From: Flammeovirgaceae bacterium BBD 1991-12
GTDB lineage: Bacteria; Bacteroidota; Bacteroidia; Cytophagales; Cyclobacteriaceae
Direction of reading: 5' to 3'
DNA: 64,000 bases
Assembly (NCBI GenBank): GCA_001657315.1
Contig: LYSV01000030.1
Coordinates: forward strand, 1-64,000
Numbering within the stretch: the first letter of the stretch is position 1; every line of letters starts with the position of its first letter. Positions 10,990-52,053 of this stretch are shown here, piece by piece. The notes under the pieces were generated by a model. That model worked only from the letters and a program-made list of their open reading frames with translations. It was not told the DNA's origin and searched no databases. Position numbers and translations under genes: made by a program.

Positions 10990-13599
10990 ATGTATGAACA
11001 CAAACCTATACCACCGAGAGCAGCCCAGCGTTTCCTGCTGTGGTTTCTCAAAGATGACCTTGCAGAGGAGGTGCTGGGGGATCTTGACGAGAAGTTTTTC
11101 AGCACGCTGGAGAGCCACTCGCCTTCCAGGGCTAAACGTCACTACTGGTTTCAGGTCTTTCACTACCTACGACCTTTTGCACTAAAAAAATACAGGCCAA
11201 ACTCAACACAACACATCATGATTCAAAACTATTTAAAGATCAGCTACCGCAACCTGCGAAAGAACCGGGGATATGCCTTTATCAATATTGGCGGCCTGGC
11301 CATAGGAATGGCTGTAGCCATGATCATCGGGCTGTGGGTCCATGACGAGATCTCGCATGACAAATACCACAAAAATTATAAACACATTGCCCAGGTGATG
11401 AAAAATCAGACGGCCAATGGAGAGGTCTACGTTTCGTCAGCCCAGGCCCGTCCACTGGAATTCATTCTCCGTGATGAGTTCGGAGAAAATTTTGAACACA
11501 TTGTGATGAGCTCATGGCCGGGAGACCATGTTCTTTCCCATGAAGACGTGACCATTAAAAAGCGTGGTAATTACATGCAGGCCGGAATAAGTGACATGCT
11601 AAGCCTGAATATAGAAAAAGGTACTGCCACCGGATTTGATCAACCGGATAAGATCCTGCTGTCAAGCTCCACGGCCAGGGCCTTGTTTTCATCCGATGAC
11701 CCGGTGGGTAGGGTGATCAGGATGAACAATGATCAGGATCTTACCGTGATCGGTGTATATGCCGATCTGCCGTCCAATACCTCCTTCGAATACCTGCAAT
11801 TTATCGCCCCCTGGTCACTATATGTCAATTCTTCTGAATACGTACAGCGTATCGAGACCGTATGGGATCATTCTTTCCAGATCTTTGTGCAGATCGCTCA
11901 AAATACGGATATGCAGTCCCTTACGGACAGGCTAAAGCCTGTCCCTGCCACAAAGGACGAACATCTTGCGGAGTTTGAAACCGAGCTGTTTCTACATCCC
12001 ATGAAAGACTGGCACCTGCGGTCGGAGTGGAGAAATGGCATACAGCGAGGGGGCAACATCCAATATGTTGTTCTCTTCAGCATGATAGGTGTATTTGTAC
12101 TATTACTGGCCTGTATCAACTTCATGAATTTGAGCACTGCCCGTTCACAAAAGCGGGCACGGGAAGTAGGTATCCGAAAATCTGTCGGATCCCGCAAGGG
12201 TCAGCTAATAGATCAGTTTCTCAGTGAGTCTTTCTTCATTGTGATCATTGCTTTTGTCTTGTCTGCTCTCCTCGTCCTGATCACATTGCCAGAATTCAAT
12301 GACCTGATGAGCAAGCAGATCACTTTTCCATGGAATGTGACCGGCTTTTGGCTGGCTTCAGCAGGCTTTATCATTATTACCTCCCTGCTTTCCGGCAGTT
12401 ACCCCGCATTTTATTTATCCTCTTTCAAACCCGTAGATGTACTAAAAGGTGCAACCCAGAGGGGCCCCGGAGGGTCTTTACCCAGAAAAATCCTTGTGGT
12501 TATGCAATTCACCGTCTCCGTTTCTCTGATCATCTGTACGCTGTTGATCTTTAGGCAAATCCAATACAGCAAGGACCGGCCCATAGGATATGATCAGCAG
12601 GGACTGATCCATACCACATGCAATATCGAAGACTTCAAAGGAAAATACGATCTTTTTCACAATGCTCTGATCGAATCCGGAGCGGTAATAGCCATGTCAG
12701 CCTCCCACAGCCCGCTTACAGGAGTATGGTCAGGGAGTTCCGGGTTTTCATGGGAGGGCAAACCAGCCGATTTTAAAGCCCATTTTGGAACGGTCAGGGT
12801 ATCGCATGACTACGGCAGGTCCATCGGCTGGAAGATCATGGAAGGGAGGGATTTCTCCAGGGAGCTCGCCAGCGATTCCAATGCCGTAATTATCAATGAA
12901 GCTGCCGTGAAGTACATGGGGTTGGAGGATCCATTGGGTAAATACATATACATGGGAGGATCACGCCCCAGACAGATCATCGGTGTAGTTGAAAATGTGG
13001 TAATGGAATCTCCCTACCAACCTGTGGAGCAGTCGCTCTATACCATTGGCCATGGAGATTACAACTTCTACAATCTGCGTTTGAATCCTCGTAAAAGCAT
13101 GCATACCAACATTGCTGCCATAGAGGAGGTTTTCAAAAAGCTGGTGCCGGGCATCCCTTTTACCTTTGAGTTTGTGGATGAGAAGTATGCCAGAAAATTC
13201 AGGGCAGAGGAACGCATTGGAAATTTGTCACGTGTATTTACTGCTCTGGCCATATTTATATCCTGTCTTGGCCTGTTCGGACTGGCTTCCTTCATGGCCG
13301 AGCAACGTACTAAGGAAATTGGCATAAGAAAAGTACTGGGCGCCACAGTCTTTAATTTGTGGAAGCTGCTGACAAAAGATTTTCTGTTCCTCGTCATGAT
13401 ATCGTGCCTCATGGCCGTACCTCTTTCCTTCTATTTCATGAGCGGCTGGATAGGGCAATTTGAATACCGTATTGATATTTCGCCATGGATATTTATCGCC
13501 TCAGCGACAATGGCGCTTATCATCACCCTGCTCACTGTAAGTTATCAATCCATCAGGACTGCCATTGCCAATCCCGTTAACAGTCTACGCTCCGAATAA
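10990..13599 (+). CDS. FtsX/MacB-type permease with prefix domain, array member P1
   Basis: An 869-residue membrane protein. Residues 1-76 are the permease-prefix domain (FLLWFLKDDLAEEVLGDLDE core, ending YLRPFALKKYRPNS). From Met77 it is a duplicated MacB-like permease: one TM helix at about 95-118, a periplasmic core domain, FtsX repeat 1 with three TMs (about 355-478; motif CINFMNLSTARSQKRAREVG), then a second half with one TM at about 500-524, another periplasmic domain and FtsX repeat 2 (about 745-865; CLGLFGLASFMAEQRTKEIG). Eight TMs in all; tail NPVNSLRSE. Such permeases are powered by a separate LolD/MacB-type ATPase for export or lipoprotein handling, but none is encoded here. First gene after padR-1. 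Confidence 0.92.
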   Translation: MYEHKPIPPRAAQRFLLWFLKDDLAEEVLGDLDEKFFSTLESHSPSRAKRHYWFQVFHYLRPFALKKYRPNSTQHIMIQNYLKISYRNLRKNRGYAFINIGGLAIGMAVAMIIGLWVHDEISHDKYHKNYKHIAQVMKNQTANGEVYVSSAQARPLEFILRDEFGENFEHIVMSSWPGDHVLSHEDVTIKKRGNYMQAGISDMLSLNIEKGTATGFDQPDKILLSSSTARALFSSDDPVGRVIRMNNDQDLTVIGVYADLPSNTSFEYLQFIAPWSLYVNSSEYVQRIETVWDHSFQIFVQIAQNTDMQSLTDRLKPVPATKDEHLAEFETELFLHPMKDWHLRSEWRNGIQRGGNIQYVVLFSMIGVFVLLLACINFMNLSTARSQKRAREVGIRKSVGSRKGQLIDQFLSESFFIVIIAFVLSALLVLITLPEFNDLMSKQITFPWNVTGFWLASAGFIIITSLLSGSYPAFYLSSFKPVDVLKGATQRGPGGSLPRKILVVMQFTVSVSLIICTLLIFRQIQYSKDRPIGYDQQGLIHTTCNIEDFKGKYDLFHNALIESGAVIAMSASHSPLTGVWSGSSGFSWEGKPADFKAHFGTVRVSHDYGRSIGWKIMEGRDFSRELASDSNAVIINEAAVKYMGLEDPLGKYIYMGGSRPRQIIGVVENVVMESPYQPVEQSLYTIGHGDYNFYNLRLNPRKSMHTNIAAIEEVFKKLVPGIPFTFEFVDEKYARKFRAEERIGNLSRVFTALAIFISCLGLFGLASFMAEQRTKEIGIRKVLGATVFNLWKLLTKDFLFLVMISCLMAVPLSFYFMSGWIGQFEYRIDISPWIFIASATMALIITLLTVSYQSIRTAIANPVNSLRSE

Positions 13600-13611
13600 T
13601 AGCCGTTAGGA

Positions 13612-16206
13612 TTGAAAAATACGAATACCATACCGCCTGAATCTGCCCGGAGTTTCCTGCTGTGGTTTCTCAGGGAAGACCTGGCTGAAGAGGTACTGGG
13701 CGACCTGGAGGAGAATTTTTACCGTTCACTGAAAAAAGGGTCACCTGGCAGGGCAAGACGCAACTACTGGTATCAGGTATTCCACTATCTACGCCCCTTT
13801 GCTATTCGAAAGTACAGGTCAAACTCAAATCATTTTATCATGTATCATCACAATATAAAAGTAGCCTGGAGAAATATTTTAAAGGATAAGGTCTCGTTTC
13901 TGATCAACGCCTCAGGTCTGGCCTTAAGCATGTTCTGCGCCATGCTTATCGTACTCTGGATCACGGACGAATTGAACTACGAAACCTTTTTCTCCAACTC
14001 AGAGCGGATCTATCGCCTGGTACAGGACGTACAGTTTGACGATGGAACCGTGTTTAAGGCCGCTGCCTCACCAGCACCCATGCCTGAGTATCTCAAGGAC
14101 CATTATCCAGGGATTGCCGGGTTTACCCGTTTCCGCCCCAGAACGGATAAGGTATTGATCCAATATGAAGAGGTGAAATTTTACGAAGATGTAGCCTATG
14201 CTGATTCTACTCATTTCGGGATTTTCCAACATCGCTTTATCGCAGGAAATCCCGAAAATGCACTGTTTGACCCTGGTTCAGTGGTAATAAGTGCAAGAAT
14301 AGCCGAGAAATACTTTGGCCATGACTGGGAGCGGCAAAGTGTATTGGGTAAAGTACTGACCCTTAACACTAATGAAAATTTTAAAATAACCGGAGTTATC
14401 GAAAATCTGCCTTCCAACACCCATTTGAGGTATGATATAGTATTGCCTTTCCGTAAACTGTATGAGTATGGATGGACTATGAACTGGGGTAACAACTACT
14501 ACTATGCTTATTTTTTGCTGGAAGAAGATACGGATGCTGCGCTGCTGACAGAACAAATTTCAGCATTTGCCAAAACCAGGGACGAGATTGGCGATAACTT
14601 TTACCTTCAGCCCCTTCATGAAATTCATCTCTACTCTGACTTTGATATTGATGTGTACGGAAGTACCGAACTGAGATATCCTTATCTGAATATTTTTATA
14701 ATAATAGCCTTTGCCATTATTCTGGTAGCTTGCATCAATTTCATGAATCTGTCCACAGCCCGATCTGAAAAAAGAGCCAAAGAAATCGGTCTTCGCAAAG
14801 CCATAGGTTCACACAGGGTCCAGATCGTAGGGCAGTTGATGAGTGAATCCGTCCTGACGGCTGTACTTGCATGGTTCATCGCCCTGGGCGCAGTAGTATT
14901 CACACTTCCTTATTTCAACAATATTACAGCCAAATCGATCGCCTTTGGTGCGGATGACTGGTCCATTCTGCTGTCATTTATTTTTGGAGCTGTCCTTATC
15001 GGATTACTGGCTGGCAGTTACCCTGCTCTTTATCTTTCTGCGTTTAAACCGGCCCAGGTCCTAAAGGGAAGATCGGTGTCCGGAGGGGGCACTACTTTCA
15101 GGAGAATGCTAGTCACCATTCAGTTCGCAGTTTCCATTATTCTACTGGCAGGTACCGCCATTGTGTACAAACAATTCCAGTATTTCATCGAAAAAGACCT
15201 GGGATACGATAAGGACCTGCTTATCTATATGCAGGTGCGTGGTGACATATGGAATAACTATAATGGTTTTAAAAATGAACTTTTGCAACAGCCATCAGTC
15301 AAAGGAGTTACGGTTTCCTCGGACATTCCTACCCATACCGTGCACGCTACCTATGACTTTGACTGGGAGGGTAAAAGCGAAGAGGAAGATATTTTGATCT
15401 ATCATTTTTCCGTGGATTTCGACTATATGGAAACGCTGGGATTGGAAATTCTGGAAGGCCGGAGCTTTTCCCCTGACTTTCCGGCTGATTCCGGTAATTT
15501 TATTCTGAACGAAGAAGCCCTGAGGGTAACAGGGCTTAAATCCCCTGTAGGCAGCCCTTTTTCCATGTGGGGCCGTGAGGGGAAAATAATCGGAATTGTT
15601 AAAGACTTCAATTTCAAATCTTTGCATCAGAAGGTGGAACCGCTGGTGCTTCGCATGATCCCTGCATGGAACGCCTACATCCTTGCTAAAGTGAATCCAG
15701 CCAATCTGGATCAGGCATTGGAGGTTATGGCAGATGCGTGGAAAAAATACAACCATGATTACCCTTTCGAGTATCATTTCCTTGACGAGCAATACAAAGC
15801 GCTTTACCAGGCTGAAAAAAGGATGGCCACGGTATTTGATTACTTTACTTTTTTTACCTTGTTCATAGCCTGTCTGGGCCTGATAGGGCTTATCAGCCAC
15901 ATGATCGAGAAAAGAAGAAAGGAGATCAGTATCAGGAAAGTTTTCGGCGCCTCCATTTCCAGGATACTGGTGCTGCTGTTCAGAGAGTACCTGCAACTTA
16001 TCCTTATTGCCTTCCTCATATCTGTTCCGATAGCCGTTTTCTTCATTTTCAAATGGCTGGAAAATTATGCCTACCGTATCGAGGTGCAATGGTGGATGTT
16101 TGCAGTTCCGGGATTTGCGGTACTACTTATTTCGTTGTTGCTGGTTAGCAGGCAAACCGTGAGAGCGGCAAGGCAAAACCCGGTAGATAATCTGCGGTAT
16201 GAATAA
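13612..16206 (+). CDS. FtsX/MacB-type permease with prefix domain, array member P2
   Basis: 864 residues, starting at TTG 13612, 12 bp after P1. The start is set by alignment with siblings (MKNTNTIPPES against MKHNNPIPPQS in P6). Prefix residues 1-76, internal Met77. The second FtsX repeat is divergent: CLGLIGLISHMIEKRRKEISIRKVFGAS, with no AAFMAE motif. The N-terminal TM region (SFLINASGLALSMFCAMLIVLW) also differs from P1, so P2 is an early branch of the array. Tail NPVDNLRYE. The non-ATG start suggests low expression or coupling to P1. Confidence 0.9.
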   Translation: MKNTNTIPPESARSFLLWFLREDLAEEVLGDLEENFYRSLKKGSPGRARRNYWYQVFHYLRPFAIRKYRSNSNHFIMYHHNIKVAWRNILKDKVSFLINASGLALSMFCAMLIVLWITDELNYETFFSNSERIYRLVQDVQFDDGTVFKAAASPAPMPEYLKDHYPGIAGFTRFRPRTDKVLIQYEEVKFYEDVAYADSTHFGIFQHRFIAGNPENALFDPGSVVISARIAEKYFGHDWERQSVLGKVLTLNTNENFKITGVIENLPSNTHLRYDIVLPFRKLYEYGWTMNWGNNYYYAYFLLEEDTDAALLTEQISAFAKTRDEIGDNFYLQPLHEIHLYSDFDIDVYGSTELRYPYLNIFIIIAFAIILVACINFMNLSTARSEKRAKEIGLRKAIGSHRVQIVGQLMSESVLTAVLAWFIALGAVVFTLPYFNNITAKSIAFGADDWSILLSFIFGAVLIGLLAGSYPALYLSAFKPAQVLKGRSVSGGGTTFRRMLVTIQFAVSIILLAGTAIVYKQFQYFIEKDLGYDKDLLIYMQVRGDIWNNYNGFKNELLQQPSVKGVTVSSDIPTHTVHATYDFDWEGKSEEEDILIYHFSVDFDYMETLGLEILEGRSFSPDFPADSGNFILNEEALRVTGLKSPVGSPFSMWGREGKIIGIVKDFNFKSLHQKVEPLVLRMIPAWNAYILAKVNPANLDQALEVMADAWKKYNHDYPFEYHFLDEQYKALYQAEKRMATVFDYFTFFTLFIACLGLIGLISHMIEKRRKEISIRKVFGASISRILVLLFREYLQLILIAFLISVPIAVFFIFKWLENYAYRIEVQWWMFAVPGFAVLLISLLLVSRQTVRAARQNPVDNLRYE

Positions 16207-16218
16207 CTGAATGTGCCT

Positions 16219-18873
16219 TTGAAATCCAGACAGACCATACCACCCCGGCTCGCCCAATCATTCTTGCTCCGGTTCCTTAGGGAGGATATAGCAGAAGAGG
16301 TACTGGGCGACCTCGAGGAGAAGTTTTACAGTTCACTGAAAAAAGGATCGCTCGCCAGGGCAAGACGTAACTACTGGTACCAGGTATTCCACTATCTGCG
16401 CCCCTTTGCGCTCAAAAAATACAAGTCAAAACACTCAAACACAACAACCATGTTTAAAAACGATCTCAAAATTGCCTGGAGGCATTTTCAAAGACAAAAA
16501 ATGTATTCTCTTATCAAAACAGCCGGATTTTCCCTGGGAATAGCTGCCTGTTTTCTGATCACTTTGTACATTCTGGATGAACTGAAATATGATCAGCATT
16601 ACAAGGATAAGGAACATATATACCGCATAGTCGGCGAATTTAACAGGGATGGCGACCTCGAGAAAGACGTTTGGTTCCCGGCGCCACTGGCCAGGGTACT
16701 GGAGGAGGACTTCCCTGAAATTGAAAAAGCCGGAAGGTACAACAACGCCTCATTATTCGGAGCAGGTAGCAATGAAGTGCGACGAACAGACCAACGAATG
16801 AATTTTTTTGAGACGGGTTTTACCTATATAGATCAAAAACTGTTTGATATCCTTCAATTCCAGCTTATCGCAGGGAATCCAGGCACCGTACTCAGTAAGC
16901 CGAATGACATGGTGATATCCCGACGAAAGGCGGAGAAATACTTTCCAAATGGAGATCCTCTGGGCAAAACACTGATACTGAACAACAACGAGGAAGAGGT
17001 TTATACCATTCGCGGAGTGATGGAAGATCCGGAAAATGTGCATTTCAAGGGTGATTTTTTCATAGCGCTGGCAGGAGTGGAATTCTGGCCCGGTGAGCAG
17101 AATTTCTGGGGCGCTTCCAACTATCCCACCTATGTAAAACTGAAGCCGGGCGCAGATGCGAAGGCACTGGAGGAAAAGCTGGAGGCCATCAAGGAGAATT
17201 ACCTGATCCCGGCGTGGAAGCAGTCAGGCGATCTTAATGTAGAAGAGAATGCCAAAAAATTCAGGCTGAACCTACAGGCCGTGTCCGATATATATCTGAG
17301 ATCTGCCGGCATCAACGACGAGCTGAAACATGGTGATATCCGTTTTGTCTGGCTGTTTGGTGGCGTGGCCGCTTTTATCCTGATCATTGCAAGTATAAAC
17401 TTCGTTAATCTTTCTACGGCGCGATCCGCCAACCGGGCAAGGGAGGTGGGTTTGCGTAAGGCCATAGGATCCTCCCGGAGTCGCCTGATCAGTCAGTTTC
17501 TGGTAGAATCCTTATTGCTTAGCTTTCTGTCTTTTTCCCTAGGCTTACTGCTGGCCTATGTGCTGTTACCCTGGTTCAACCTTCTTGCGGGCAAATCCCT
17601 GATCATGCCATGGCTTGAGTGGTGGCTGTGGCCTGTGCTGCTGATCTCCGTTTTTGTAGTGGGTATCCTTGCCGGCCTCTATCCTGCCTTTTATCTGTCT
17701 TCGTTCAGACCTGTCAGCGTACTGAAAGGAAACCTGAGCAGAGGCAGTAAGGCTTCCGGCATGCGTAACACACTGGTTGTATTCCAGTTCACAACCTCCA
17801 TTTTGCTTATCATTGCCACCTTCGCGATCTACCGGCAGGTCAGTTACATTCTGAATAAAAAGGTAGGCTTTGATAAAGAACAGGTGGTTATGATCCGGGG
17901 TGCCAACACCCTGGGGGACAGCCGGTCCGTCTTCAAAAACAAGCTACTGGAACTCTCGTCTGTAAAAAATGCTACCATCAGTGATTACCTGCCAGTGAGC
18001 GGTGCCAAACGAAACAACAACGGTTTTGTAAAGGAGGGCAAAAGAGGTGGAGAAGAACCGGTGTATGGTCAGATATGGCGTGTAGATCACGACTATATCA
18101 ATACACTCGGCATGAAGGTGGTAAAAGGCCGGGATTTTTCCCGGGAAATGCTGACTGACTCATCGGCCATGATCATCAATGAAAAAATGGCGAGAGCCTT
18201 CGGTTTTGAAGATCCTGTTGGTGAAAAAATTGAAAACTTTGGCGATGTGCGTACCATCATCGGTGTCATTGAAGATTTCCACTTCGAATCCATGAAAGCA
18301 GAGATCCGATCCCTCTGCCTGGTATTGGGCAACAGCCCGGAGACCATCTCAGTGAGGCTGGAAACCGAAGATATGGAGGCATCACTCAGGACAATAAACG
18401 ATCTATGGGATGATCTTTCTCCTGATCAGCCCATACGCTATTCGTTCCTTGATGACAGTTTTGCCACCATGTACGATGATGTTCAGCGTACGGGAAAGAT
18501 ATTTGGCGCATTCGCGTTACTTGCGATCGTTGTGGCCTGTCTGGGTCTGTTTGCGTTGTCTTCATTTATGGTGGAGCAGCGGGGTAAGGAGATCAGCATA
18601 CGTCTGATCCTGGGAGCAACGGTAAGGAGCATCTTTGGTATGCTTACCGTCAATTTCGTCCGGTTGGTAATGGTTTCTCTGCTGATCGCTGTACCACCAG
18701 CATGGTATTTCGTACATAAGTGGCTCGAAGATTTTATCTATCGGGTGGAAATGGGACCGGGGATATTTATAGTAGCAGGGGCTATATCCTTAGTGATCGC
18801 ATTACTTACTGTCAGTTATCAGTCAGTACGGGCGGCTGTCGCCAGTCCGTCCGACCGTCTGAGATCTGAGTGA
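16219..18873 (+). CDS. FtsX/MacB-type permease with prefix domain, array member P3
   Basis: 884 residues from TTG 16219, the longest of the ten. A GTG at 16213 is in frame, but the TTG gives MKSRQTIPPR, which aligns with the sibling starts. Internal Met is at residue 78. Distinctive changes are ASINFVNLSTARSANRAREVG in repeat 1 (Ser for the usual Cys), GLYPAFYLS in place of GSYPALYLS, and KEISIRLILGAT in repeat 2 where the siblings have IRKVLGAS. Tail SPSDRLRSE instead of NPVDxLRxE. The FtsX repeat 1 coupling segment is intact, so it need not be inactive. Confidence 0.9.
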   Translation: MKSRQTIPPRLAQSFLLRFLREDIAEEVLGDLEEKFYSSLKKGSLARARRNYWYQVFHYLRPFALKKYKSKHSNTTTMFKNDLKIAWRHFQRQKMYSLIKTAGFSLGIAACFLITLYILDELKYDQHYKDKEHIYRIVGEFNRDGDLEKDVWFPAPLARVLEEDFPEIEKAGRYNNASLFGAGSNEVRRTDQRMNFFETGFTYIDQKLFDILQFQLIAGNPGTVLSKPNDMVISRRKAEKYFPNGDPLGKTLILNNNEEEVYTIRGVMEDPENVHFKGDFFIALAGVEFWPGEQNFWGASNYPTYVKLKPGADAKALEEKLEAIKENYLIPAWKQSGDLNVEENAKKFRLNLQAVSDIYLRSAGINDELKHGDIRFVWLFGGVAAFILIIASINFVNLSTARSANRAREVGLRKAIGSSRSRLISQFLVESLLLSFLSFSLGLLLAYVLLPWFNLLAGKSLIMPWLEWWLWPVLLISVFVVGILAGLYPAFYLSSFRPVSVLKGNLSRGSKASGMRNTLVVFQFTTSILLIIATFAIYRQVSYILNKKVGFDKEQVVMIRGANTLGDSRSVFKNKLLELSSVKNATISDYLPVSGAKRNNNGFVKEGKRGGEEPVYGQIWRVDHDYINTLGMKVVKGRDFSREMLTDSSAMIINEKMARAFGFEDPVGEKIENFGDVRTIIGVIEDFHFESMKAEIRSLCLVLGNSPETISVRLETEDMEASLRTINDLWDDLSPDQPIRYSFLDDSFATMYDDVQRTGKIFGAFALLAIVVACLGLFALSSFMVEQRGKEISIRLILGATVRSIFGMLTVNFVRLVMVSLLIAVPPAWYFVHKWLEDFIYRVEMGPGIFIVAGAISLVIALLTVSYQSVRAAVASPSDRLRSE

Positions 18874-18927
18874 GTGTATCGCTGGTTATCCATATCCGGT
18901 TACAACTCACAAAAGCCATCAGAATAA

Positions 18928-21558: not shown

Positions 21559-21560
21559 AA

Positions 21561-26779: not shown

Positions 26780-26893
26780 AAAAAAATTCCATTGCACATG
26801 CAACCTTTTCCCGTGCCCCGGCATCTGATAATTACACAGTGATACTCCTGTATCCGTCATGTTAAAAAGTTAAACTCAAAATAAAACTACGTC

Positions 26894-27904
26894 ATGAAAA
26901 GTGTTCTACTCCTTTTAACCTTATGCACTCCCCTCAGTTTATCAGCATTGGCAGGGGGGAGATCCGATTCATTGACATTGGAAAGAATAAACGAGCGCGA
27001 GCTTCGGTTTCTCTACTACAAGGGTTTTGGTGCTGAAAAAAACCTGCAATTGAGTGCTGCTGACCTGGAAGAACTGGCCATGGAGTCCGGGGCGGGCAAT
27101 GTAGTAGTAAAAGGGCATGATTCGGATGTGATCGAGGTAAAGGCCCGCATCGTGCTGTCAGCACGTAGTATGGGTCGTGCTGTGGCTATTGCCGATGAGT
27201 TCCTGGTGCTGTCCCTCGAAAGGCTGGGTGGCAAAGCATTGCTAAAAAGCTATTTTGACTTTCACCGGAGAAATGATTTTTCTGAGGCCATTAATCCCAA
27301 CGGTTTTTTCAGCGCTCCGGTCAGAAAGATAGATCTTGTTGTTTATGTGCCCCGGCATCTTGCCGTTTCCGTTCGTGATCGCTCCGGTGACCTGTTCATT
27401 GAAGGGATCGAAAACGATCTTGTGGTAAAGGACCGTTCCGGATATGTGGAGATCAACAATGTAAAGGGCAACTTAAAGCTGAGCGATTCATCCGGTGATG
27501 TAAAACTGGTGAATATTAACGCAGGCAATGGCGACAAAAAAAGAATAAAGATCACGGACCGTTCCGGCACCATAAAACTGACGAACGCCAACGCTGATAT
27601 CGAATTGTTTGACAGATCCGGCGATATTAGGCTGAGCAAGGTATCAGGCGACGTATTCCTCAGGGACGCTTCCGGACACCTGCACATTGAAGACATCCGG
27701 GGAGACCTGAAATTGGTCGATGCTTCTGGCGATATCCGGGCCAGCGATATCGGTGGTCATGTAACACTAACTGACAATTCCGGCGGTATCTATGTCAATC
27801 AGGTAGCCAAAAATGTGCATGTAAAAAGTGCCGGCACGGGTGATTTACGTATCAGGAATTATGACGGGAAGATCTCAGGAGATCTGCGTCGGTTGAGCAG
27901 GTGA
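26894..27904 (+). CDS. Secreted DUF4097-like beta-repeat protein
   Basis: 336 residues with a signal peptide (MKSVLLLLTLCTPLSLSALA). After about residue 150 there is a regular repeat of some 20 residues centred on D(R/S/A)SG(D/Y): DRSGDLFIEGI, DRSGYVEINNV, DSSGDVKLVNI, DRSGTIKLTNA, DRSGDIRLSKV, DASGHLHIEDI, DASGDIRASDI. This predicts a stacked beta structure like DUF4097/DUF2807 proteins. It lies between the two permease operons and may be cotranscribed with P1-P6 or have its own A-rich leader (26860-26893). Function unknown; an envelope role next to the permeases is a guess. Confidence 0.8.
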   Translation: MKSVLLLLTLCTPLSLSALAGGRSDSLTLERINERELRFLYYKGFGAEKNLQLSAADLEELAMESGAGNVVVKGHDSDVIEVKARIVLSARSMGRAVAIADEFLVLSLERLGGKALLKSYFDFHRRNDFSEAINPNGFFSAPVRKIDLVVYVPRHLAVSVRDRSGDLFIEGIENDLVVKDRSGYVEINNVKGNLKLSDSSGDVKLVNINAGNGDKKRIKITDRSGTIKLTNANADIELFDRSGDIRLSKVSGDVFLRDASGHLHIEDIRGDLKLVDASGDIRASDIGGHVTLTDNSGGIYVNQVAKNVHVKSAGTGDLRIRNYDGKISGDLRRLSR

Positions 27905-27980
27905 TCATCCTGATCTCCTGTCATTGATAACTACTGATTGACCGAAGGGACTTTCCTTTCTTACAAGGTATTGTGGTCAA

Positions 27981-28017
27981 CCCTGCAATTTTAAAACCTG
28001 AGTTTAAATTTGCAGGG
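27981..28017 (+). terminator. Long hairpin, probable terminator of the first operon
   Basis: Two 15 bp arms with one mismatch (CCCTGCAATTTTAAA and TTTAAATTTGCAGGG) enclose a 7-nt loop. TTCTTCTC follows, a weak T-rich tail. Located 77 bp after the DUF4097-like stop. It probably ends that transcript, although the T tract is interrupted. Confidence 0.55.
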
Positions 28018-28030
28018 TTCTTCTCAGCGT

Positions 28031-28048
28031 CTCCGATAATTATCGGAG
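28031..28048. repeat. 18 bp perfect palindrome
   Basis: CTCCGATAATTATCGGAG is its own reverse complement. It may be a regulator site or part of a second terminator; no T tract follows. Confidence 0.6.
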
Positions 28049-28161
28049 CGCCTCCGCGGTTTAAAATCCAAAACGTTACCCCGGTTCAAGGCTGTCACCA
28101 ATCCCAAGCTCCCGTTGGGCAAGTCTCTTCTACCCCCAACAGGCTGTAAAAATTAAAAATC

Positions 28162-28221
28162 CTTATTTACTTAACAAAAGTGAAAATAATTTATTACATT
28201 CACTTTTGTTAAGTAAATAAG
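28162..28221. promoter_or_regulatory. Perfect 23 bp inverted repeat directly upstream of padR-2, likely operator
   Basis: The arms at 28162-28184 and 28199-28221 are exact reverse complements separated by 14 bp of pure A/T plus one C. The right arm ends 6 bp before the PadR ATG at 28228. Each arm contains a smaller dyad (ACTT-N5-AAGT). The layout (two dyads on either side of an AT-rich spacer) fits a repressor that covers the promoter and start region. Binding by PadR is inferred, not shown. Confidence 0.65.
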
Positions 28222-28227
28222 CGAAAC

Positions 28228-28554
28228 ATGAAAGAACCATCACTGGGAGAATTTGAGGAGCTGGTGCTTCTTATGGTTGCCGCTCTTCACGATGAGGCTT
28301 ATGGCGTGGCTATTCTGGAAGGCCTGGAAGAGAAGCTAAATAAAAGGGTGAACATCAGTGCTATCCATGTGGCACTGAAAAGAATGGAGGAAAAGGGATT
28401 TGTGAAGTCAAGGTACGGAGGTATCACCACAGACAGAGGAGGCAGGCGTAAGAAATTCTATGTGATCACGGCTTTTGGGAAAAGTGTACTGGACCAGCAA
28501 TACGCTCTTCGGACCGGCCTCTATCAGCAGATCCCGAAAATCTCTTTTGGCTAA
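28228..28554 (+). CDS. PadR family transcriptional regulator (padR-2)
   Basis: 108 residues. Winged helix with LGEFEELVLLMVAALHDEAYGVAI, then AIHVALKRMEEKGFVKSRYGG and the wing TDRGGRRKKFYVITAFGKSVL. It heads the four-permease operon P7-P10 and its TAA stop overlaps the ATG of P7 (TAATG), so regulator and first permease are translationally coupled. It shares its N-terminal pattern with padR-1 and padR-3 but its upstream operator sequence is different, which suggests separate control of the two operons. Confidence 0.9.
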   Translation: MKEPSLGEFEELVLLMVAALHDEAYGVAILEGLEEKLNKRVNISAIHVALKRMEEKGFVKSRYGGITTDRGGRRKKFYVITAFGKSVLDQQYALRTGLYQQIPKISFG

Positions 28555-31148: not shown

Positions 31149-31151
31149 CCT

Positions 31152-33740
31152 ATGAGGCCCGCACCTCCACATAGAGCACTGCGCTTCCTCCGCTGGTTCT
31201 GCCGGGAAGACCATCTCGAGGAGATCGAAGGGGACCTGGTGGAGGTTTTTGAAAAGCAGTATGAAAAGTCACCGGCTGGAGCGCGAAGAAAGTTCACCTG
31301 GAGTGTGATCCGGTATTTCCGGCCGGAGTTCATTAAAGTGTTTAAAATAAGTCAAAACTCAAATACAACAGCTATGTTCCGTCACAACCTATTGCTTACC
31401 TATCGTAATTTCAAACGACATAAAAGTACATTCTTTATCAATTTACTGGGTCTTTCCACAGGGCTTACCTGCTCATTGCTGATCTATCTGTGGGTAATGG
31501 ATGAACTTCAAATTGATAAATTCCATGAGCATGACGATCGGATATTTCAGGTACTGGAAAATTTTGATGAACCAATAGGACTCCGAACCGGAGAGACCAC
31601 ATCCGGTTACATGGCAGAAGCTCTTGCTGAAGAGCTGCCCGAAGTTGAATATGCTGCAGCCGTGCTTACACCCATCGAAAATGCTACTCTTTCCACAGAT
31701 GACAAAAACTTCAAGGTCAATGGTCAGTATGTGGGTAAGGATTACTTCAACATATTTTCCTATCCCATAATCATGGGACAGAAGGATGAGCTGTGGACAA
31801 ACAGCAACAGTATACTGGTCTCCAAAGCTATGGCCGGCAGGCTCTTCAATTCCACTGAAGATATACTAGGCAAAACGATCGAATTTGATCACGAAAAAAC
31901 ATTCCATATTTCCGGGGTATATGAAATACCGCAGGGTCAGTCTTCCTATCAATTTGATTTTGCATTGTCCTTTGAAGAATATGCCGTTGATAATAAAAAT
32001 GTGCTGTACTGGGGAAATACTCCTGCACATGTATTTGTCAGGCTGAAACCAGAAGCGGATGTCAATACCTTCAATGAAAAGATCGCTGATTTCGTACAGA
32101 TAAAAAGAGAGAAAGAAAAGCGTTTTCGCACTCCCTTTCTAGCGAGATACTCGGATCGTTATTTATATGGCCGCTATGAAAGCGGGGTACAAAGCGGAGG
32201 TCGGATAAGCTATGTAAAACTGTTCTCCGTTATTGCCATCTTTATTCTGCTCATCGCCTGTATCAACTTCATGAACCTTTCTACCGCAAGGGCCTCACGA
32301 AGAATGAAGGAAGTTGGCATTAAAAAGGCGAATGGCGCCACCCGAAGATCACTGATCTATCAATATTTAGGTGAATCCACGATCATGGCCATTTTATCAC
32401 TGGTATTATCCATGGTGCTGGTCTGGTTGCTTCTGCCACAATACAATGAGATTACGGGCAAGTACCTTGTGTTTGCACCTGACGCTAAACTTTTTTCCAC
32501 GTTATTAACCATTGTTATACTCACCGGACTTATCGCTGGCAGCTATCCGGCACTATACCTCTCAGGATTTAGCCCTGTCACTGTTTTAAAAGGAAACATG
32601 GTCAAAGCCACGGGTGAAATATGGGCCCGGAAGGGTCTTGTGATCTTTCAGTTTACCATCTCTGTGATCCTGATTGTATCCGTCGTCGTGGTTTACAGGC
32701 AGATTGAATACGTGCAAAACAAGCATCTTGGGTTTGAAAAAGAGAGCATCATCCTGTTTGACCGTGAAGGTGTAACCGGTAGTGAAGATCATCTTGAGAC
32801 ATTTCTTTCAGAACTAAAGAATATCCCGGGGGTTGTCAATGCTTCTGCCACCAGTCATAAAATGGCCGGTAAAGACTGGGGGGTATACGGGTTTAAATGG
32901 GAGGGCAAGGACCCGGATGACAATACGCATTTCGAACTTGTCGCAGTCGATTATCACCTGATGGAGGTCATGGGTATGGAAATGGTGGAAGGAAGAACGT
33001 TTTCCCCGGTCTACGGTTCGGAAAGTTCAAAGGCCATATTCAATGAAGCCGCCATAGCCCATATGGGACTCGGGGATCCCATTGGTAAGAATATCACCTT
33101 TTGGGGAAGGGAATTTCAGATCATCGGGATCGTCAGGGATTTTAACTTTGAGTCACTTCATTCATCGGTAAAGCCTTCCATGATCGTTTACAAACCCGAT
33201 TGGACCAACAAGTTTATGGTCAAAATTGAATCGGGAAGAGAAAAGGAAACCATTCAGAGCATCGCCGCATTTTATACCGGGTACAATCCGGGTTTTTCTT
33301 TTGACTACAGTTTCCTTGATACTGAATACCAGTCCCAGTATGTGGCTGAACAGAGGGTTGCTTCTCTTTCACAATACTTTGCCGGGTTGGCGATAGTGAT
33401 ATCTTGTCTCGGTTTGTTCGGTTTGGCCGCCTTCACTGCGGAAAGAAGGACAAAGGAAATCGGAATTCGTAAAATCCTTGGTGCAAGCATCTATAGAATA
33501 GTGTATCTGTTATCCGGCGATTTCACCAAGATGGTTCTCATAGCCATTTTAATCGCCTCACCGGTGAGTTATATGCTAACCAACCATTGGTTGGAGGGAT
33601 TTGCCTTTAAGATCGACCTGCATTGGTGGTTTTTCGGAGGCGCCGGGGTGTTGGCATTGATCATTGCCTGGTTCACAGTGGGTATACAAACCGCAAAAGC
33701 CGCCAGGACCAACCCCGTGGATTGCATAAGGGATGAATAA
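31152..33740 (+). CDS. FtsX/MacB-type permease with second-type prefix domain, P8
   Basis: 862 residues from ATG 31152, 3 bp after the P7 stop. Prefix nearly identical to P7 (RWFCREDHLEEIEGDLVEVFE); internal Met75. Repeat 1 is CINFMNLSTARASRRMKEVGIKKANGATRRS, where the usual KAVG/KAMG reads KANG. Repeat 2 CLGLFGLAAFTAERRTKEIGIRKILGAS. Tail NPVDCIRDE. The last 8 bases overlap the start of P9. Confidence 0.92.
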   Translation: MRPAPPHRALRFLRWFCREDHLEEIEGDLVEVFEKQYEKSPAGARRKFTWSVIRYFRPEFIKVFKISQNSNTTAMFRHNLLLTYRNFKRHKSTFFINLLGLSTGLTCSLLIYLWVMDELQIDKFHEHDDRIFQVLENFDEPIGLRTGETTSGYMAEALAEELPEVEYAAAVLTPIENATLSTDDKNFKVNGQYVGKDYFNIFSYPIIMGQKDELWTNSNSILVSKAMAGRLFNSTEDILGKTIEFDHEKTFHISGVYEIPQGQSSYQFDFALSFEEYAVDNKNVLYWGNTPAHVFVRLKPEADVNTFNEKIADFVQIKREKEKRFRTPFLARYSDRYLYGRYESGVQSGGRISYVKLFSVIAIFILLIACINFMNLSTARASRRMKEVGIKKANGATRRSLIYQYLGESTIMAILSLVLSMVLVWLLLPQYNEITGKYLVFAPDAKLFSTLLTIVILTGLIAGSYPALYLSGFSPVTVLKGNMVKATGEIWARKGLVIFQFTISVILIVSVVVVYRQIEYVQNKHLGFEKESIILFDREGVTGSEDHLETFLSELKNIPGVVNASATSHKMAGKDWGVYGFKWEGKDPDDNTHFELVAVDYHLMEVMGMEMVEGRTFSPVYGSESSKAIFNEAAIAHMGLGDPIGKNITFWGREFQIIGIVRDFNFESLHSSVKPSMIVYKPDWTNKFMVKIESGREKETIQSIAAFYTGYNPGFSFDYSFLDTEYQSQYVAEQRVASLSQYFAGLAIVISCLGLFGLAAFTAERRTKEIGIRKILGASIYRIVYLLSGDFTKMVLIAILIASPVSYMLTNHWLEGFAFKIDLHWWFFGGAGVLALIIAWFTVGIQTAKAARTNPVDCIRDE

Positions 33741-36321
33741 GCCCACTCCTCCAAAAAGGCCCTTGAAATTCCTCCGCTGGTTCTGCCGGGAGGATTACAT
33801 CGAGGAGATCGAGGGAGACCTTATCGAAATGTTTGAAAGGCAGCATGAGATCTCCCCTGCCAGAGCCAGAAGAAAATTCATCTGGAGTGTGATCCGGTAT
33901 TTCCGACCGGAGTTTATCAAACCCTTCAGAAGCAATTATCACCAAAACACGATGACCATGTTCCGACACAACTTTTTGTTGAGCTACCGTACCTTTAAAC
34001 GCTACAAAACAACTTTTTTCATCAATCTTATGGGCCTTTCCACCAGCCTGGCTGGTGCCTTGTTGATTTATCTATGGGTTCATGATGAATTGAACACGGA
34101 CAAATTCCATGAAATGGATGAGCGGCTTTACCAGGTGATGGAGCACATGAAACACGATAACAAAACCTATACCCATGGCGAAACTTCCGGTCCCATGGCA
34201 GAAGTTTTGATCGAGGAAATGCCGGAAGTTGAATACGCCGCGGCCGTAGCTCCTACCCATTGGCCTGGATTCGATAGTTTTACGCTCTCTGTGGGAGAAA
34301 CCAACATCAGGGCCACAGGACAATATGCAGGTGAAGACTACTTCAATATTTTTTCCTATAGACTTATGTATGGCGATAAGGATCACGTACTATCGGATAA
34401 AAATTCTATCGTCATATCTGAACAAGTGGCAATGAATCTGTTCAACACCACTGAGGGACTCATTGGAAAGGCAGTGGAGTTTCAGCATGAGCGGGACTTT
34501 CTGATTTCCGGAGTTTTCAGGCAGGTACCTGCCAACTCATCGGTTCAATTTGATTTTGTGTTGTCATTCGAAACATTCAAGGATATAAAGCCCTGGGTGA
34601 ACAGTTGGGGAAGCACAGGACCTTTTATATATGCAGTTGTAAAGGAGGAAACGGATATCGGACAATTCAACCGCAAATTTCCAACCATTGTCCAAAGAAT
34701 AACCGGAGACTCTGCACGCTATCCCTTCCTTAAATCCTATTCTGAAAACTATCTGTTCAATACCTATGAAAATGGAGTACAAACCGGTGGCAGGATTGAA
34801 TATGTAAGACTATTCACCATCATTGCCATTTTCATCCTGCTCATTGCCTGCATCAATTTCATGAACCTCTCTACAGCCAGGGCATCCCGGCGTTTAAAAG
34901 AAATTGGAATAAAGAAAGTCGTGGGCTCAGGACGAGGGGAGCTTATTTTCCAATATATGGGAGAGTCCATGCTCATGGCCTTTGCTTCCCTGATCATTGC
35001 TATGCTGGTGGTAGTGCTTTTGCTTCCCCAATTCAACGAAATAACAGGGAAACAACTTACGTTGGTCTTTGATAGATCCCTGATCCTTGCTGCCATGAGC
35101 ATTACGCTCGTCACTGGCATAGCCGCAGGCAGCTATCCTGCATTATATCTCTCCGGTTTCAGGCCAATCCGCATATTGAAGGGCTCACAAAAAGCACCGC
35201 TGTCAGCAGTAAGAGCGCGAAAAGGTCTGGTAGTTTTCCAATTCACCCTTTCAGTGATATTAATGGTGGGGATATGGGTAGTATACCAACAAATTGAATT
35301 TGTGCAGGGTCGGCATCTGGGGTATGAAATAGACAACGTGATCTATTTCAATGCAGAGGGCAGATCGAAAGAGAATATGGAGACTTTCCTGAGTGAAATG
35401 AAGCGGATACCGGGTGTGATAAATGCTTCCAGTACTGCGCATCGCATGGTGGGTCACAACTGGTCTGTGGGAGGAGTAGAATGGGAAGGAAAAGACCCTG
35501 ACAATATGATCGGGTTCCAGGTAGCTTCCGTAAACTACGACTTCCTTGAAACCTTGGGATTTGAGTTAAAAGAAGGACGTTCTTTTTCGAGGGATTTTGC
35601 CGACGATACCCAAAAAATCATATTCAATGAGACGGCCATTGAAGCTATGGGTCTCTCAGATCCGATTGGCAAAACGGTTCGCTTCATGGGAAGCAAAGAG
35701 ATTATCGGAGTTGTCAAGGATTTCCACTACGAATCTCTTCATGAGAAGTTAACACCATTTTTTTTCATTATCATACCTGGTTCAGACAACAAGGTTATGG
35801 CCAGAATTGAAGCAGGCAAAGAAAGGGAAACCCTCGACAGGCTCCAGGACTTTTATGCAATCCATAACCCCGGTTTCCCCTTTGATTACAAATTCCTGGA
35901 TGACGATTATGAGGCTCAATACACAGCAGAGCAACGTGTCGCCTCACTGTCTCAGTATTTCACAGGCCTTGCCATCCTAATTTCCTGCCTGGGACTGTTC
36001 GGTCTGGCAGCCTTTACAGCAGAAAGAAGAACGAAGGAGATAGGCATTCGCAAAATACTGGGTGCCGGTAATTTTAGTGTTGTTCGTCTACTGTCAGCAA
36101 ATTTTACCAAAATGGTCCTTGTGGCGATTACTATTGCGCTGCCTGTCAGCTACTTTATTGCTCAAAAATGGCTGGAAGGTTTTGCCTTTCGCATTGAACT
36201 GGAGTGGTGGTATTTTGCCGGATCTGGGTTGATCGCTTTGCTCATTGCATGGTTTACCGTGGGGCTGCAAACGGTGAAAGCAGCGAATGTAAATCCTGTA
36301 GACTGTCTGAAAGATGAATGA
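33733..36321 (+). CDS. FtsX/MacB-type permease with second-type prefix domain, P9
   Basis: 862 residues from ATG 33733, overlapping P8 by 8 bp. Prefix LKFLRWFCREDYIEEIEGDLIEMFE; internal Met at 74 and 76 (MTMFRHNFLLSYRT). Repeat 1 CINFMNLSTARASRRLKEIGIKKVVGSGR; repeat 2 CLGLFGLAAFTAERRTKEIGIRKILGAG; tail NPVDCLKDE. No unusual residue stands out; it is the most regular member of the second operon. Confidence 0.92.
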   Translation: MNKPTPPKRPLKFLRWFCREDYIEEIEGDLIEMFERQHEISPARARRKFIWSVIRYFRPEFIKPFRSNYHQNTMTMFRHNFLLSYRTFKRYKTTFFINLMGLSTSLAGALLIYLWVHDELNTDKFHEMDERLYQVMEHMKHDNKTYTHGETSGPMAEVLIEEMPEVEYAAAVAPTHWPGFDSFTLSVGETNIRATGQYAGEDYFNIFSYRLMYGDKDHVLSDKNSIVISEQVAMNLFNTTEGLIGKAVEFQHERDFLISGVFRQVPANSSVQFDFVLSFETFKDIKPWVNSWGSTGPFIYAVVKEETDIGQFNRKFPTIVQRITGDSARYPFLKSYSENYLFNTYENGVQTGGRIEYVRLFTIIAIFILLIACINFMNLSTARASRRLKEIGIKKVVGSGRGELIFQYMGESMLMAFASLIIAMLVVVLLLPQFNEITGKQLTLVFDRSLILAAMSITLVTGIAAGSYPALYLSGFRPIRILKGSQKAPLSAVRARKGLVVFQFTLSVILMVGIWVVYQQIEFVQGRHLGYEIDNVIYFNAEGRSKENMETFLSEMKRIPGVINASSTAHRMVGHNWSVGGVEWEGKDPDNMIGFQVASVNYDFLETLGFELKEGRSFSRDFADDTQKIIFNETAIEAMGLSDPIGKTVRFMGSKEIIGVVKDFHYESLHEKLTPFFFIIIPGSDNKVMARIEAGKERETLDRLQDFYAIHNPGFPFDYKFLDDDYEAQYTAEQRVASLSQYFTGLAILISCLGLFGLAAFTAERRTKEIGIRKILGAGNFSVVRLLSANFTKMVLVAITIALPVSYFIAQKWLEGFAFRIELEWWYFAGSGLIALLIAWFTVGLQTVKAANVNPVDCLKDE

Positions 36322-36324
36322 CCT

Positions 36325-38868
36325 GTGAAGCCTTCGCCTCCAAATCGTCCATTACGTTTCCTCCGCTGGTTTTGTCGGGAGGACTATCTCGAGGAGATAG
36401 AGGGAGACCTGGTGGAGGTATTTGAAAAGCAATATGAAAGTTCACCACGTACGGCCCGATGGTGGTTCACCTCGAATGTGATCCGATACTTCAGGCCGGA
36501 GTTTGTTAAATCATTTGCATCAGGTTATTCCCCAAATACAATCGCTATGTTCCGTCATAACTTCTTACTTACCTACCGGATATTTAAACGTTACAAAAGC
36601 TCATTTTTCATCAACCTGACCGGATTATCGGTAGGGCTTGCCTCAGCCCTCTTGATCTTCCTGTGGGTAAATGATGAACTGAAAATTGACAAGTTCCATG
36701 AAAAGGATGATCAACTCTATCAGGTCTATCACAATGTGCATCGTTCCGATGGTATTACAACTATGGGGAATACATCATATCATTTTTTTAAAGATCTGAA
36801 AGAGGAAATGCCGGAAGTGGAATACGCCGTTGCAGTTATGTACAGAAGAGAATTCACGCTTTCATTTGAAAACATCAATATAAAGGCAACGGGCCAATAT
36901 GTTAGTGAGGATTTCTTCAACGTTTTTTCATTCCGTCTTACCCATGGGGATAAAGATCAGGTACTGAATGACCATAGTTCCATCATACTGTCGAGTGAGC
37001 TGGCCATGAATTTATTCGGTACCACCAAAAGTGTTCTGGGTAAATTTGTGGAATTCCAGCATGGTAAGCTGTACAGCGTTTCAGGGATCTTTGAAGACGT
37101 ACCTTCCAACTCTTCCGAGCAGTTTGATTTTTTATTGCCCCTGGAAGAAGGAAGCGGCGGTGGTATTCGCACCTATATCGTGTTAAGGGAAGGCACTAAA
37201 ATCGATCTGTTCAATGATAAGATAGCTGATTTCAAACAAAGAAAGGATGCCCCTATGCGCATCAATTATTTTCTAAAGCACTATTCGGATTACTATTTAT
37301 ATAATATTTACAAGAATGGAAAGCAGGCCGGTGGTAGGATAGAGAACGTAAGATTATTTTCTGCAATCGCTGTCCTCATTATAGTGATTGCCAGTATCAA
37401 TTTCATGAACCTTTCTACTGCCCGAGCCTCCCGGAGGAGCAGGGAGGTGGGCATAAAGAAGGCGGTTGGAGCGGGGCGCAGGTCACTTATTTTCCAGTAC
37501 CTGGGAGAGTCTGTGTTCATGGCCTTTTCGTCATTGCTAGTCGCCATTATCACCGTATTGGTCCTACTGCCACATTTCAACACCCTTACCGGGAAGCAAC
37601 TGGCATTGGATGCTGATCTTAATCTTATATCATCCATCCTGATCATCACCTTACTTACCGGGCTTGTGGCGGGCAGTTACTCTGCTTTATATCTTTCCGG
37701 ATTTAAACCTGCCACAGTGTTGAAAGGAGGCCTTACCAATTCATCCGGAGGGCAATGGGCCCGAAGAGGATTAGTGGTATTTCAGTTTGCACTATCCGTA
37801 ATACTGATCGTATCTGTTATTGTGGTTTTCAAACAAATAGAATACGTGCAGACAAAAAACCTGGGCTATGACAGGGAGAATATCCTGTACTTTGACATGG
37901 AAGGGAAGGTTGCCGAAAGTCCGGGCAGCTTTCTTTCAGAAGTTAAAAATATACCCGGAGTAGTTACTGCTTCAAGCCTTGATCACAGTATGTCAGGCTG
38001 GTATAGAGCTACCTCCGATGTCCAATGGGTGGGGAAGGACCCGGATACCCATATTGGCTGGGAGATCTTCCTGATAAACTATGACCTTATTGAAACGCTG
38101 GGTATGGAAATGGCAGAAGGACGGTCCTTTTCACGAGATTTTGTTTCCGACAGCTCAAGGATCATTGTCAATGAAACTGCCATTAACCTTATGAAGTTTA
38201 CTGATCCGGTAGGCGAATCCGTTAAATTTGGTAGTCACGAATATGAAATTGTAGGCGTGGTCAACGATTTTCACTACACTTCTCTCCGTTACAAACTGGT
38301 CCCTGTGGTCATGTTTTTAACTCCAAACATAACCGGAAAGATCATGGCCAGGATTGAAGCAGGAAGGGAGCCTGAAACCATCAAACAGCTTGAGGCGCTT
38401 CATCAAAGCTACAATCCGGGTTTTGTGATGGACTACAAATTCCAGGAACACAACTATCAGGCCTTATACAAGGCAGAGGAGCTGGTTGCCACACTATCCA
38501 GGTACTTTGCCGGGATTGCCGTTTTGGTTTCCTGCCTGGGGTTATTGGGACTGGCAGCTTTTACCGCTGACAGAAGGCTAAAAGAGATGGGTATTCGAAA
38601 GATCCTGGGTGCCGGCAATTTCAGTATTATTCGTCTTTTATCGGATGATTTCACCCGGATAGTGCTTGTAGCGATTGTCATTGCTTTGCCTGTAAGCTAT
38701 TTTATGACGGCAAAATGGTTGGAAGGCTTTGCTTTTCGGATCGAGCTGGAATGGTGGTTTTTCGTCATCGCTGGTTTGGCTGCCCTGTTGATCGCATGGC
38801 TGACAGTGGGGGTCCAAACAATAAAGGCCGCCCACATGAATCCGGTTGAGTGCCTGAGGGACGAGTAA
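36325..38868 (+). CDS. FtsX/MacB-type permease with second-type prefix domain, P10
   Basis: 847 residues from GTG 36325, 3 bp after P9; the shortest of the ten, with its loss mainly in the first periplasmic domain (LPLEEGSGGGIRTYIVL region). Internal Met75. Small departures at conserved places: SINFMNLSTARASRRSREVG (Ser for Cys) and GSYSALYLSG (Ser for Pro), plus AAFTADRRLKEMGIRKILGAG. It is the last gene of the operon; tail NPVECLRDE. These changes may reflect relaxed selection at the end of the array. Confidence 0.9.
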   Translation: MKPSPPNRPLRFLRWFCREDYLEEIEGDLVEVFEKQYESSPRTARWWFTSNVIRYFRPEFVKSFASGYSPNTIAMFRHNFLLTYRIFKRYKSSFFINLTGLSVGLASALLIFLWVNDELKIDKFHEKDDQLYQVYHNVHRSDGITTMGNTSYHFFKDLKEEMPEVEYAVAVMYRREFTLSFENINIKATGQYVSEDFFNVFSFRLTHGDKDQVLNDHSSIILSSELAMNLFGTTKSVLGKFVEFQHGKLYSVSGIFEDVPSNSSEQFDFLLPLEEGSGGGIRTYIVLREGTKIDLFNDKIADFKQRKDAPMRINYFLKHYSDYYLYNIYKNGKQAGGRIENVRLFSAIAVLIIVIASINFMNLSTARASRRSREVGIKKAVGAGRRSLIFQYLGESVFMAFSSLLVAIITVLVLLPHFNTLTGKQLALDADLNLISSILIITLLTGLVAGSYSALYLSGFKPATVLKGGLTNSSGGQWARRGLVVFQFALSVILIVSVIVVFKQIEYVQTKNLGYDRENILYFDMEGKVAESPGSFLSEVKNIPGVVTASSLDHSMSGWYRATSDVQWVGKDPDTHIGWEIFLINYDLIETLGMEMAEGRSFSRDFVSDSSRIIVNETAINLMKFTDPVGESVKFGSHEYEIVGVVNDFHYTSLRYKLVPVVMFLTPNITGKIMARIEAGREPETIKQLEALHQSYNPGFVMDYKFQEHNYQALYKAEELVATLSRYFAGIAVLVSCLGLLGLAAFTADRRLKEMGIRKILGAGNFSIIRLLSDDFTRIVLVAIVIALPVSYFMTAKWLEGFAFRIELEWWFFVIAGLAALLIAWLTVGVQTIKAAHMNPVECLRDE

Positions 38869-51992: not shown

Positions 51993-52053
51993 AGTACTCA
52001 ACTACCTGAGACCGTCCTTTCTTAAATCCATAAAACTCAAAACAACAGAAACC

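Follow-up and report, generated by a model that had tools for sequence, protein, structure and literature searches.

We propose that the ten duplicated FtsX/MacB permeases encoded in tandem in the window, the 64,000-nucleotide stretch of DNA analysed here, belong to a large set of pumps driven in trans by a shared DarD-type ATPase, and that the short N-terminal prefix of each permease is tied to the PadR regulator of its operon. We put the probability of this explanation at roughly 70%. The case was built computationally, from the predicted fold, the conservation of the coupling helices, co-occurrence across genomes, operon structure elsewhere, covariation of prefix and PadR, prefix exchange and palindromes upstream of the regulators.

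Two PadR-led operons of duplicated permeases

The ten permease ORFs, each with an N-terminal prefix, make up two PadR-led operons of six and four genes, all on the + strand and encoding proteins of 847-886 aa (operon 1, P1-P6, 10990-26779; operon 2, P7-P10, 28554-38868). The first-pass annotation had described ten tandem ORFs in two tight operons, and all ten were found across this span, with spacing that runs from an 8-bp overlap (P8/P9) to a gap of 54 bp (P3/P4). Operon 1 opens with PadR1, a PadR-family regulator of 108 aa (10630-10956, + strand; PF03551, E 5e-9), followed by P1 (10990-13599, 869 aa), P2 (13612-16206, 864 aa), P3 (16213-18873, 886 aa), P4 (18928-21558, 876 aa), P5 (21561-24179, 872 aa) and P6 (24179-26779, 866 aa). 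PadR2, also of 108 aa (28228-28554, + strand; PF03551, E 2.5e-9), opens operon 2 and precedes P7 (28554-31148, 864 aa), P8 (31152-33740, 862 aa), P9 (33733-36321, 862 aa) and P10 (36325-38868, 847 aa). A domain search revealed two MacB_PCD and two FtsX stretches in every one of the ten, and the perm_prefix_2 family (NF038404) matched all ten N-termini at 54-67 bits, above its cut-off of 35. The nearest named relatives found for P9 are from Bacteroidota, the first being a Cytophagales MAG (66% identity) and a Chryseolinea MAG (62%), in a search that may omit very near genomes.

A gene for a Toastrack (DUF4097) protein of 336 aa lies between the operons, after P6 (26894-27904, + strand; PF13349, E 1.2e-18); Toastrack is described as a proposed partner of PadR/HAAS systems (PMC11237479). 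Further along the window there is an eleventh duplicated permease, P11 (52054-54429, + strand, 791 aa; domain search), which has no in-frame prefix and, together with its own PadR3 (51512-51853, + strand, 113 aa; PF03551, E 1.2e-8), spans 51512-54429. Between the two genes (51854-52060) a prefix-like peptide is spread over two reading frames, and the P11 prefix looks to have been broken by a frameshift. At another locus (L018, 8915-9277) a stand-alone prefix ORF stands ahead of a permease. Just past P10, in the opposite orientation, we found a RES-domain toxin and Xre/MbcA/ParS antitoxin pair (38964-39835, - strand), and a Tn5-type transposase gene lies about 6 kb from P11 (60074-61369, - strand).

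The source genome (8.59 Mb in 282 contigs) contains 88 duplicated permeases longer than 650 aa, counted by their match to a profile made from the ten. This census drew on 60 genome regions; some of the permeases counted are truncated where a contig ends, and the figure leaves out fragments of 650 aa or less, a divergent YbbP-type protein in L011 and a duplicated permease in L014 (9032-11436) that is present as two overlapping half-genes of 386 and 415 aa. MacB_PCD itself has at least 150 matches genome-wide (150 of 172 candidates scored). The window-type prefix is present in 31 of the 88, the ten among them, and absent from the other 57. Of the 16 prefixed runs, 15 open with a PadR gene, although a small ORF intervenes in L010, and the last (L009) runs off a contig end. 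The run of ten that had been singled out is real, but it is not exceptional in a genome with 88 such permeases, in which contig C195 carries a run of nine, all unprefixed.

Coupling helices and predicted fold

In MacB and other type VII transporters the major coupling helix is described as sitting between TM2 and TM3 (PMC5985334). The corresponding motif after TM2, RxxE(I/V)G(I/V)(R/K)KxxG, is complete in our alignment at 7 of 7 positions in both halves of all ten permeases. The first-pass annotation had proposed this check and had named loss of the coupling helices as the outcome that would speak against an orphan transporter; such loss is ruled out. When 758 valid 15-residue windows were ranked by conservation across the 88 paralogues, the top one fell on the second coupling helix; windows on the first helix are outranked by ten others, all of which overlap the second helix or the end of TM2 just ahead of the first. 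Mean column entropy in a 59-row alignment was 1.29 and 0.92 for the two coupling helices compared with 2.51 and 2.37 for the periplasmic domains; first-half TM2 is nearly as low (1.36).

The first motif is complete in 29 of 31 prefixed and 53 of 56 unprefixed permeases of this genome, compared with 77 of 89 permeases that are linked to an ATPase. Scored over 13 residues against the consensus of the linked permeases, the first coupling helix matched at 8.6 and 9.5 (linked, 9.6) and the second at 10.9 and 10.7 (linked, 11.4); by this measure the helices of this genome are slightly further from the linked consensus than those of the linked permeases themselves. A few members, ATPase-linked ones included, have a degenerate first coupling helix. 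Permeases of this kind occur in L018 (2922-5534) and L030 (2570-4990), where one ATPase contact may possibly have been lost.

An AlphaFold2 model of P9 (mean pLDDT 87.3, pTM 0.79) places short helices at residues 388-397 and 767-775, between long helices, and these form the predicted coupling segments. Compared with known structures by fold, the model matches YbbAP best (9ge6 chain A; E 6e-20, query TM 0.44). By their domains and predicted coupling helices, the ten permeases have two of the features expected of type VII ABC (MacB/FtsX/YbbP) proteins. The mixed multimers suggested earlier are not needed to account for them, as the P9 model and its fold match indicate that each chain is a fused pseudo-dimer, like YbbP as described (PMC12646458).

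Candidate ATPases in the genome

PF00005 has 64 matches in the genome at E 0.001, of which 49 were inspected in regional sequence and 15 were judged by frame length and score only. None of the 64 falls on C10, the 69,250-bp contig that comprises the window and 5.2 kb beyond it. The earlier statement that neither the array nor the window encodes an ATPase therefore holds at this threshold, and this also rules out a dedicated ATPase in the part of the contig beyond the window.

Eight ATPases among the 49 inspected places look able to serve a type VII fold: YbbA, a LolD/DevA type, LolD, FtsE, a short LolD-like protein, a MacB-type orphan (L058) and two DarD-like proteins (L022 and L012). All eight score at least 269 bits with a profile built from those same eight, and the ninth-ranked ATPase scores 179. 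LolD, FtsE, YbbA and the DevA-type ATPase were set aside as motors for the arrays on account of their own permeases or known roles. The DarD-like ATPase of L022 (C245:90421-91107; L022:3422-4108) is encoded beside a membrane-fusion protein and an 808-aa permease. Its best NCBIfam match is NF038007 at 292 bits, below the cut-off of 375; ‘DarD-type’ is used here only as a label. The second DarD-like ATPase (L012; C195:41052-41738) lies beside an outer-membrane efflux gene. An inverted beta-lactamase-family gene separates it from the permease array of that contig (L012 3053-7812).

The DarD-type ATPase tracks the permeases across genomes

Among 118 genomes of the order, with thresholds of E 1e-80 for both the permease profile and the DarD query, the duplicated permease is present in 60 and the DarD-type ATPase in 59. 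Both occur in 59 genomes, the permease only in one (G074), the ATPase only in none and neither in 58. At most eight permease candidates were scored per genome in this set and at most three in the phylum set below, so that permease numbers in genomes other than the source are lower bounds; all 26 order genomes that reached eight carry DarD, and each of the 59 positive genomes has just one or two DarD matches. A phylum set of 296 genomes, which shares some members with the order set, was scored with a DarD threshold of E 1e-90 chosen after calibration on loci in hand. Here DarD was found in 92 genomes and the permease in 90, and the two agree in 292 (89 with both, 203 with neither); the exceptions are one genome with the permease only (G399) and three with DarD only (G193, G274 and G346), all three at threshold. 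No DarD was found above 248 bits in G074 or above 276 bits in G399, both of which are permease-positive, many-contig assemblies in which the absence is unsure. These counts take each genome as independent, with no correction for the species tree, and the co-occurrence is partly trivial because the permease often adjoins DarD.

The array permeases do not look ATPase-free, because their coupling-helix motif is intact and among the most conserved parts of the protein and because the family co-occurs with DarD. Among the explanations offered in the first-pass annotation, sharing of a distant ATPase is thus the best supported. It is possible, though unlikely, that this ATPase is another one acting in trans, either the MacB-type orphan (C227:7147-7866, L058) or the DarD-like protein of C195, whose gene lies near the nine unprefixed permeases as well as beside the efflux gene. 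The MacB-type ATPase stands without a permease in all 30 loci viewed with flanks of about 1.5 kb or less, has a match (E <1e-100) in 90 of the 118 order genomes, the present one included, and could serve some permeases in the 56 of 60 permease genomes that carry it. It tracks the permease family less well than DarD, however: at E 1e-100 it has no match in 4 of the 60 genomes with permeases, yet matches 34 of the 58 without them, 24 genomes having neither. Half-size MacB permeases on contigs C215, C161 and C114, which have no PF00005 match, would also be its more natural clients. This ATPase (L058 4145-4867; L097-L126) is 69-82% identical in 89 other genomes of the order, and a cobalamin adenosyltransferase gene lies beside it in 12 of the 30 loci.

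Linked loci and a common permease family

We also looked at loci in which ATPase and permease genes are close together. We took 20 such loci, one from each of 20 genomes, whose coordinates had already placed the two close together; in all 20 a membrane-fusion gene, DarD and then two to seven permeases follow one another on the same strand within the sequence taken, with other ORFs breaking the run in a few. DarD directly precedes a permease in nine of 15 genomes that have one to three permeases and had been selected on the basis of low copy number or a missing MacB-type ATPase. In a tree of 176 permeases, obtained by a quick search without a mixture model and with support below 80 on 56 of 173 inner branches, the window proteins fall inside groups of DarD-linked permeases, and the permeases of this genome are interspersed with linked ones. 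P6-P10 group with the linked permeases of G011 and G206, and P2 and P3 with others, the placement of P2 being on a long branch. P1 is 55% identical to the DarD-linked permease of G293, its best ATPase-linked relative. Because the window permeases nest among the DarD-linked ones, orphan and linked permeases constitute one family. The stepwise expansion suggested earlier, which would presumably serve different substrates, fits the tree of P6-P10.

Another explanation is that the co-occurrence reflects common ancestry of one operon, arrays and DarD travelling together without functional dependence. The permease directly after DarD in the nine low-copy genomes and in this genome (L022) would suit this explanation, as would counts that ignore phylogeny. 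We nevertheless consider it quite unlikely, as arrays and DarD vary together inside genera (in g3, G033 and G085 carry both and G047 neither; in g17, four genomes carry both and five neither), the permeases lie scattered at a distance from the DarD locus, and every DarD-positive genome of the order set also has such permeases.

Modular behaviour of the prefix

Comparison of 81 prefixed permeases from 35 operons indicates that the prefix goes with the operon rather than with the permease body. The 89 same-operon pairs average 69.4% identity in the prefix and 38.8% in the body, compared with 35.6% and 33.2% in the 3151 between-operon pairs. The same-operon excess in prefix identity is present in each of five body-identity bins, which take in 85 of the 89 same-operon and 2880 of the 3151 other pairs, and none of 1000 label shuffles reaches the observed coefficient. 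Four-fold sites agree at 52% in the prefixes and 32% in the bodies of same-operon pairs, compared with 28-32% in other pairs. The 52% agreement implies that same-operon prefixes share a younger ancestry on the whole. Within the window this signal is clear in operon 2 (66% against 32%) and weak in operon 1 (37% against 33%).

P6, the last gene of operon 1, is 48-51% identical to P7-P10 and 34-38% to P1-P5, so that the two operons do not represent two separate paralogue groups. Its prefix is 58-68% identical to those of P1-P5 and 33-36% to those of P7-P10, whereas its body is 32-35% identical to P1-P5 and 49-52% to P7-P10, the switch falling near residues 70-90 in P9 numbering. By these identities P6 is a natural chimera between the operons, with an operon-1-type prefix on an operon-2-type body.

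Three of the ten window prefixes were tried against the Pfam HAAS domain (PF22564) and gave no match up to E 10, and the prefix was not assigned to that family. A different prefix, in L031, matches HAAS at E 0.038. Alignment of the window-type prefix profile by hhalign gave a single column with the L031 prefix and only the 20-column prefix/body junction with L032. A Foldseek search with a model of the prefix returned nothing under E 3, and the best hit of the prefix profile in a PDB sequence search had an E of 0.88.

Covariation with PadR and candidate operators

In 28 pairs, each made up of a PadR and the permease that immediately follows it, the identities of PadR and prefix are correlated when body identity is accounted for (partial r 0.55; reached in 0 of 2000 permutations). 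The corresponding value for the body given the prefix is 0.09 (200 of 2000 permutations). Co-inheritance of adjacent DNA may explain part of the covariation between PadR and prefix, and could produce it even if the two do not bind.

Repeat scoring identified candidate operators upstream of both array regulators. The inverted repeat 5' of PadR1 (10568-10624) has two 21-bp arms, with 19 of 21 positions paired, around a 15-bp spacer; it ends 5 bp before the start codon and scores 15, compared with a shuffled 99th percentile of 10. A perfect 23-bp inverted repeat with a 14-bp spacer precedes PadR2 (28162-28221) and ends 6 bp before the start codon. Its sequence is unlike that of the PadR1 repeat, and the core of its arm recurs 5' of PadR in L146, L162 and L180. 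The best inverted repeat exceeds the shuffled 95th percentile in 9 of 29 PadR upstream regions and lies below it in 20, including that of the PadR of P11, and no signal came from counting dyads shared exactly among the PadR upstream regions.

The array permeases might instead be membrane sensors for PadR that are no longer coupled to ATP, their fold being a relic. This would suit the covariation of prefix and PadR, the lack of a nearby ATPase and the description of Toastrack and HAAS-PadR pairs as proposed stress-signalling parts (PMC11237479), but is very unlikely, since it predicts decayed coupling helices, whereas the motif is about as well preserved here as in permeases linked to an ATPase, and since 57 of the 88 permeases have no window-type prefix and nearly all of these have no adjacent ATPase either.

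A proposed shared motor with operon-specific prefixes

In the mechanism that we favour, a shared DarD-type motor, each permease would be one chain that forms a pseudo-dimer with the type VII ABC (MacB/YbbP) fold, and its two coupling helices would contact a standalone ATPase that is encoded elsewhere and works as a dimer. The most likely motor would be the DarD-type ATPase of the membrane-fusion protein-ATPase-permease operon at C245:90421-91107, perhaps assisted by the DarD-like ATPase on C195. We infer that this ATPase is physically shared, the motor having been kept at one or two genes while the permeases multiplied, and that the pumps probably act as exporters with the same membrane-fusion and outer-membrane partners. 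Different substrates would presumably be read by the fast-evolving periplasmic domains. In the window arrays an N-terminal three-helix prefix has been added; it is swapped between neighbours and matches the PadR of the operon, which it may bind. In addition, each permease would probably signal to its own PadR or tether it, and PadR would autoregulate the operon by binding the palindrome just upstream. On balance we lean towards the general form of this proposal, in which up to about 90 permeases per genome would plug into one or two DarD-type ATPases by way of near-invariant coupling helices and a swappable N-terminal cartridge would assign each body to the PadR of its host operon.

Duplicated orphan permeases are numerous in Bacteroidota and Acidobacteria and have been transporters without a known motor. 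With a motor named, their function becomes open to test, since deleting a single gene should shut down all pumps of the family at once. The exchange of prefixes would add a new case of rewired regulation, with permeases entering a regulon through a short front domain, and P6 is a natural chimera for testing this.

Comparison with known systems

Orphan duplicated permeases were already known as ADOP (TIGR03434), the acidobacterial duplicated orphan permease, which has an internal duplication and no adjacent ATPase. The window permeases resemble ADOP in their duplicated MacB/FtsX architecture, length of about 800 aa, large paralogue families and lack of an adjacent ATPase. They differ in that TIGR03434 scores 260-331 bits in the ten, well below its cut-off of 622.3, and in their occurrence in Bacteroidota, their perm_prefix_2 domain and the DarD-type ATPase proposed as shared motor. 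The darobactin exporter DarBCD (permease NF038008, ATPase NF038007) likewise combines a duplicated permease, a standalone ATPase and a membrane-fusion protein. NF038008 scores 85-154 bits in the window permeases, however, compared with a cut-off of 700, and DarBCD pairs one ATPase with one permease.

YbbAP of E. coli, the type VII ABC system that best matches the P9 model, is described as having a pseudosymmetric single-chain permease that carries two coupling helices and is served by two ATPases (PMC12646458). It differs in having its own ATPase, YbbA, and two linking TM helices. Published precedent for PadR-linked permeases with prefix domains, which the first-pass annotation had mentioned, is found in the HAAS-PadR dyad, in which, as described, a PadR-like regulator is paired with a membrane protein, FtsX/MacB fusions included, that has a helical domain at its N-terminus, often with Toastrack nearby (PMC11237479); the three window prefixes tried differ in having no HAAS match. 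MsmK, MceG and FhuC are each said to be a single ATPase serving several transporters. Those are importers with few clients, whereas the system proposed here is of type VII with up to about 90 permeases.

Among the top results of an open-access literature search, we recognised no title on a shared ATPase for this permease family and noticed no paper on prefix exchange within it. Orphan duplicated permeases and the pairing of HAAS and PadR with FtsX/MacB fusions, as described in PMC11237479, are thus prior knowledge. Beyond the first-pass annotation, the analysis adds three points: the permeases are tracked from genome to genome by a DarD-type ATPase family, the prefix behaves as a PadR-associated module that can be exchanged, and P6 combines parts of both operons as a chimera.
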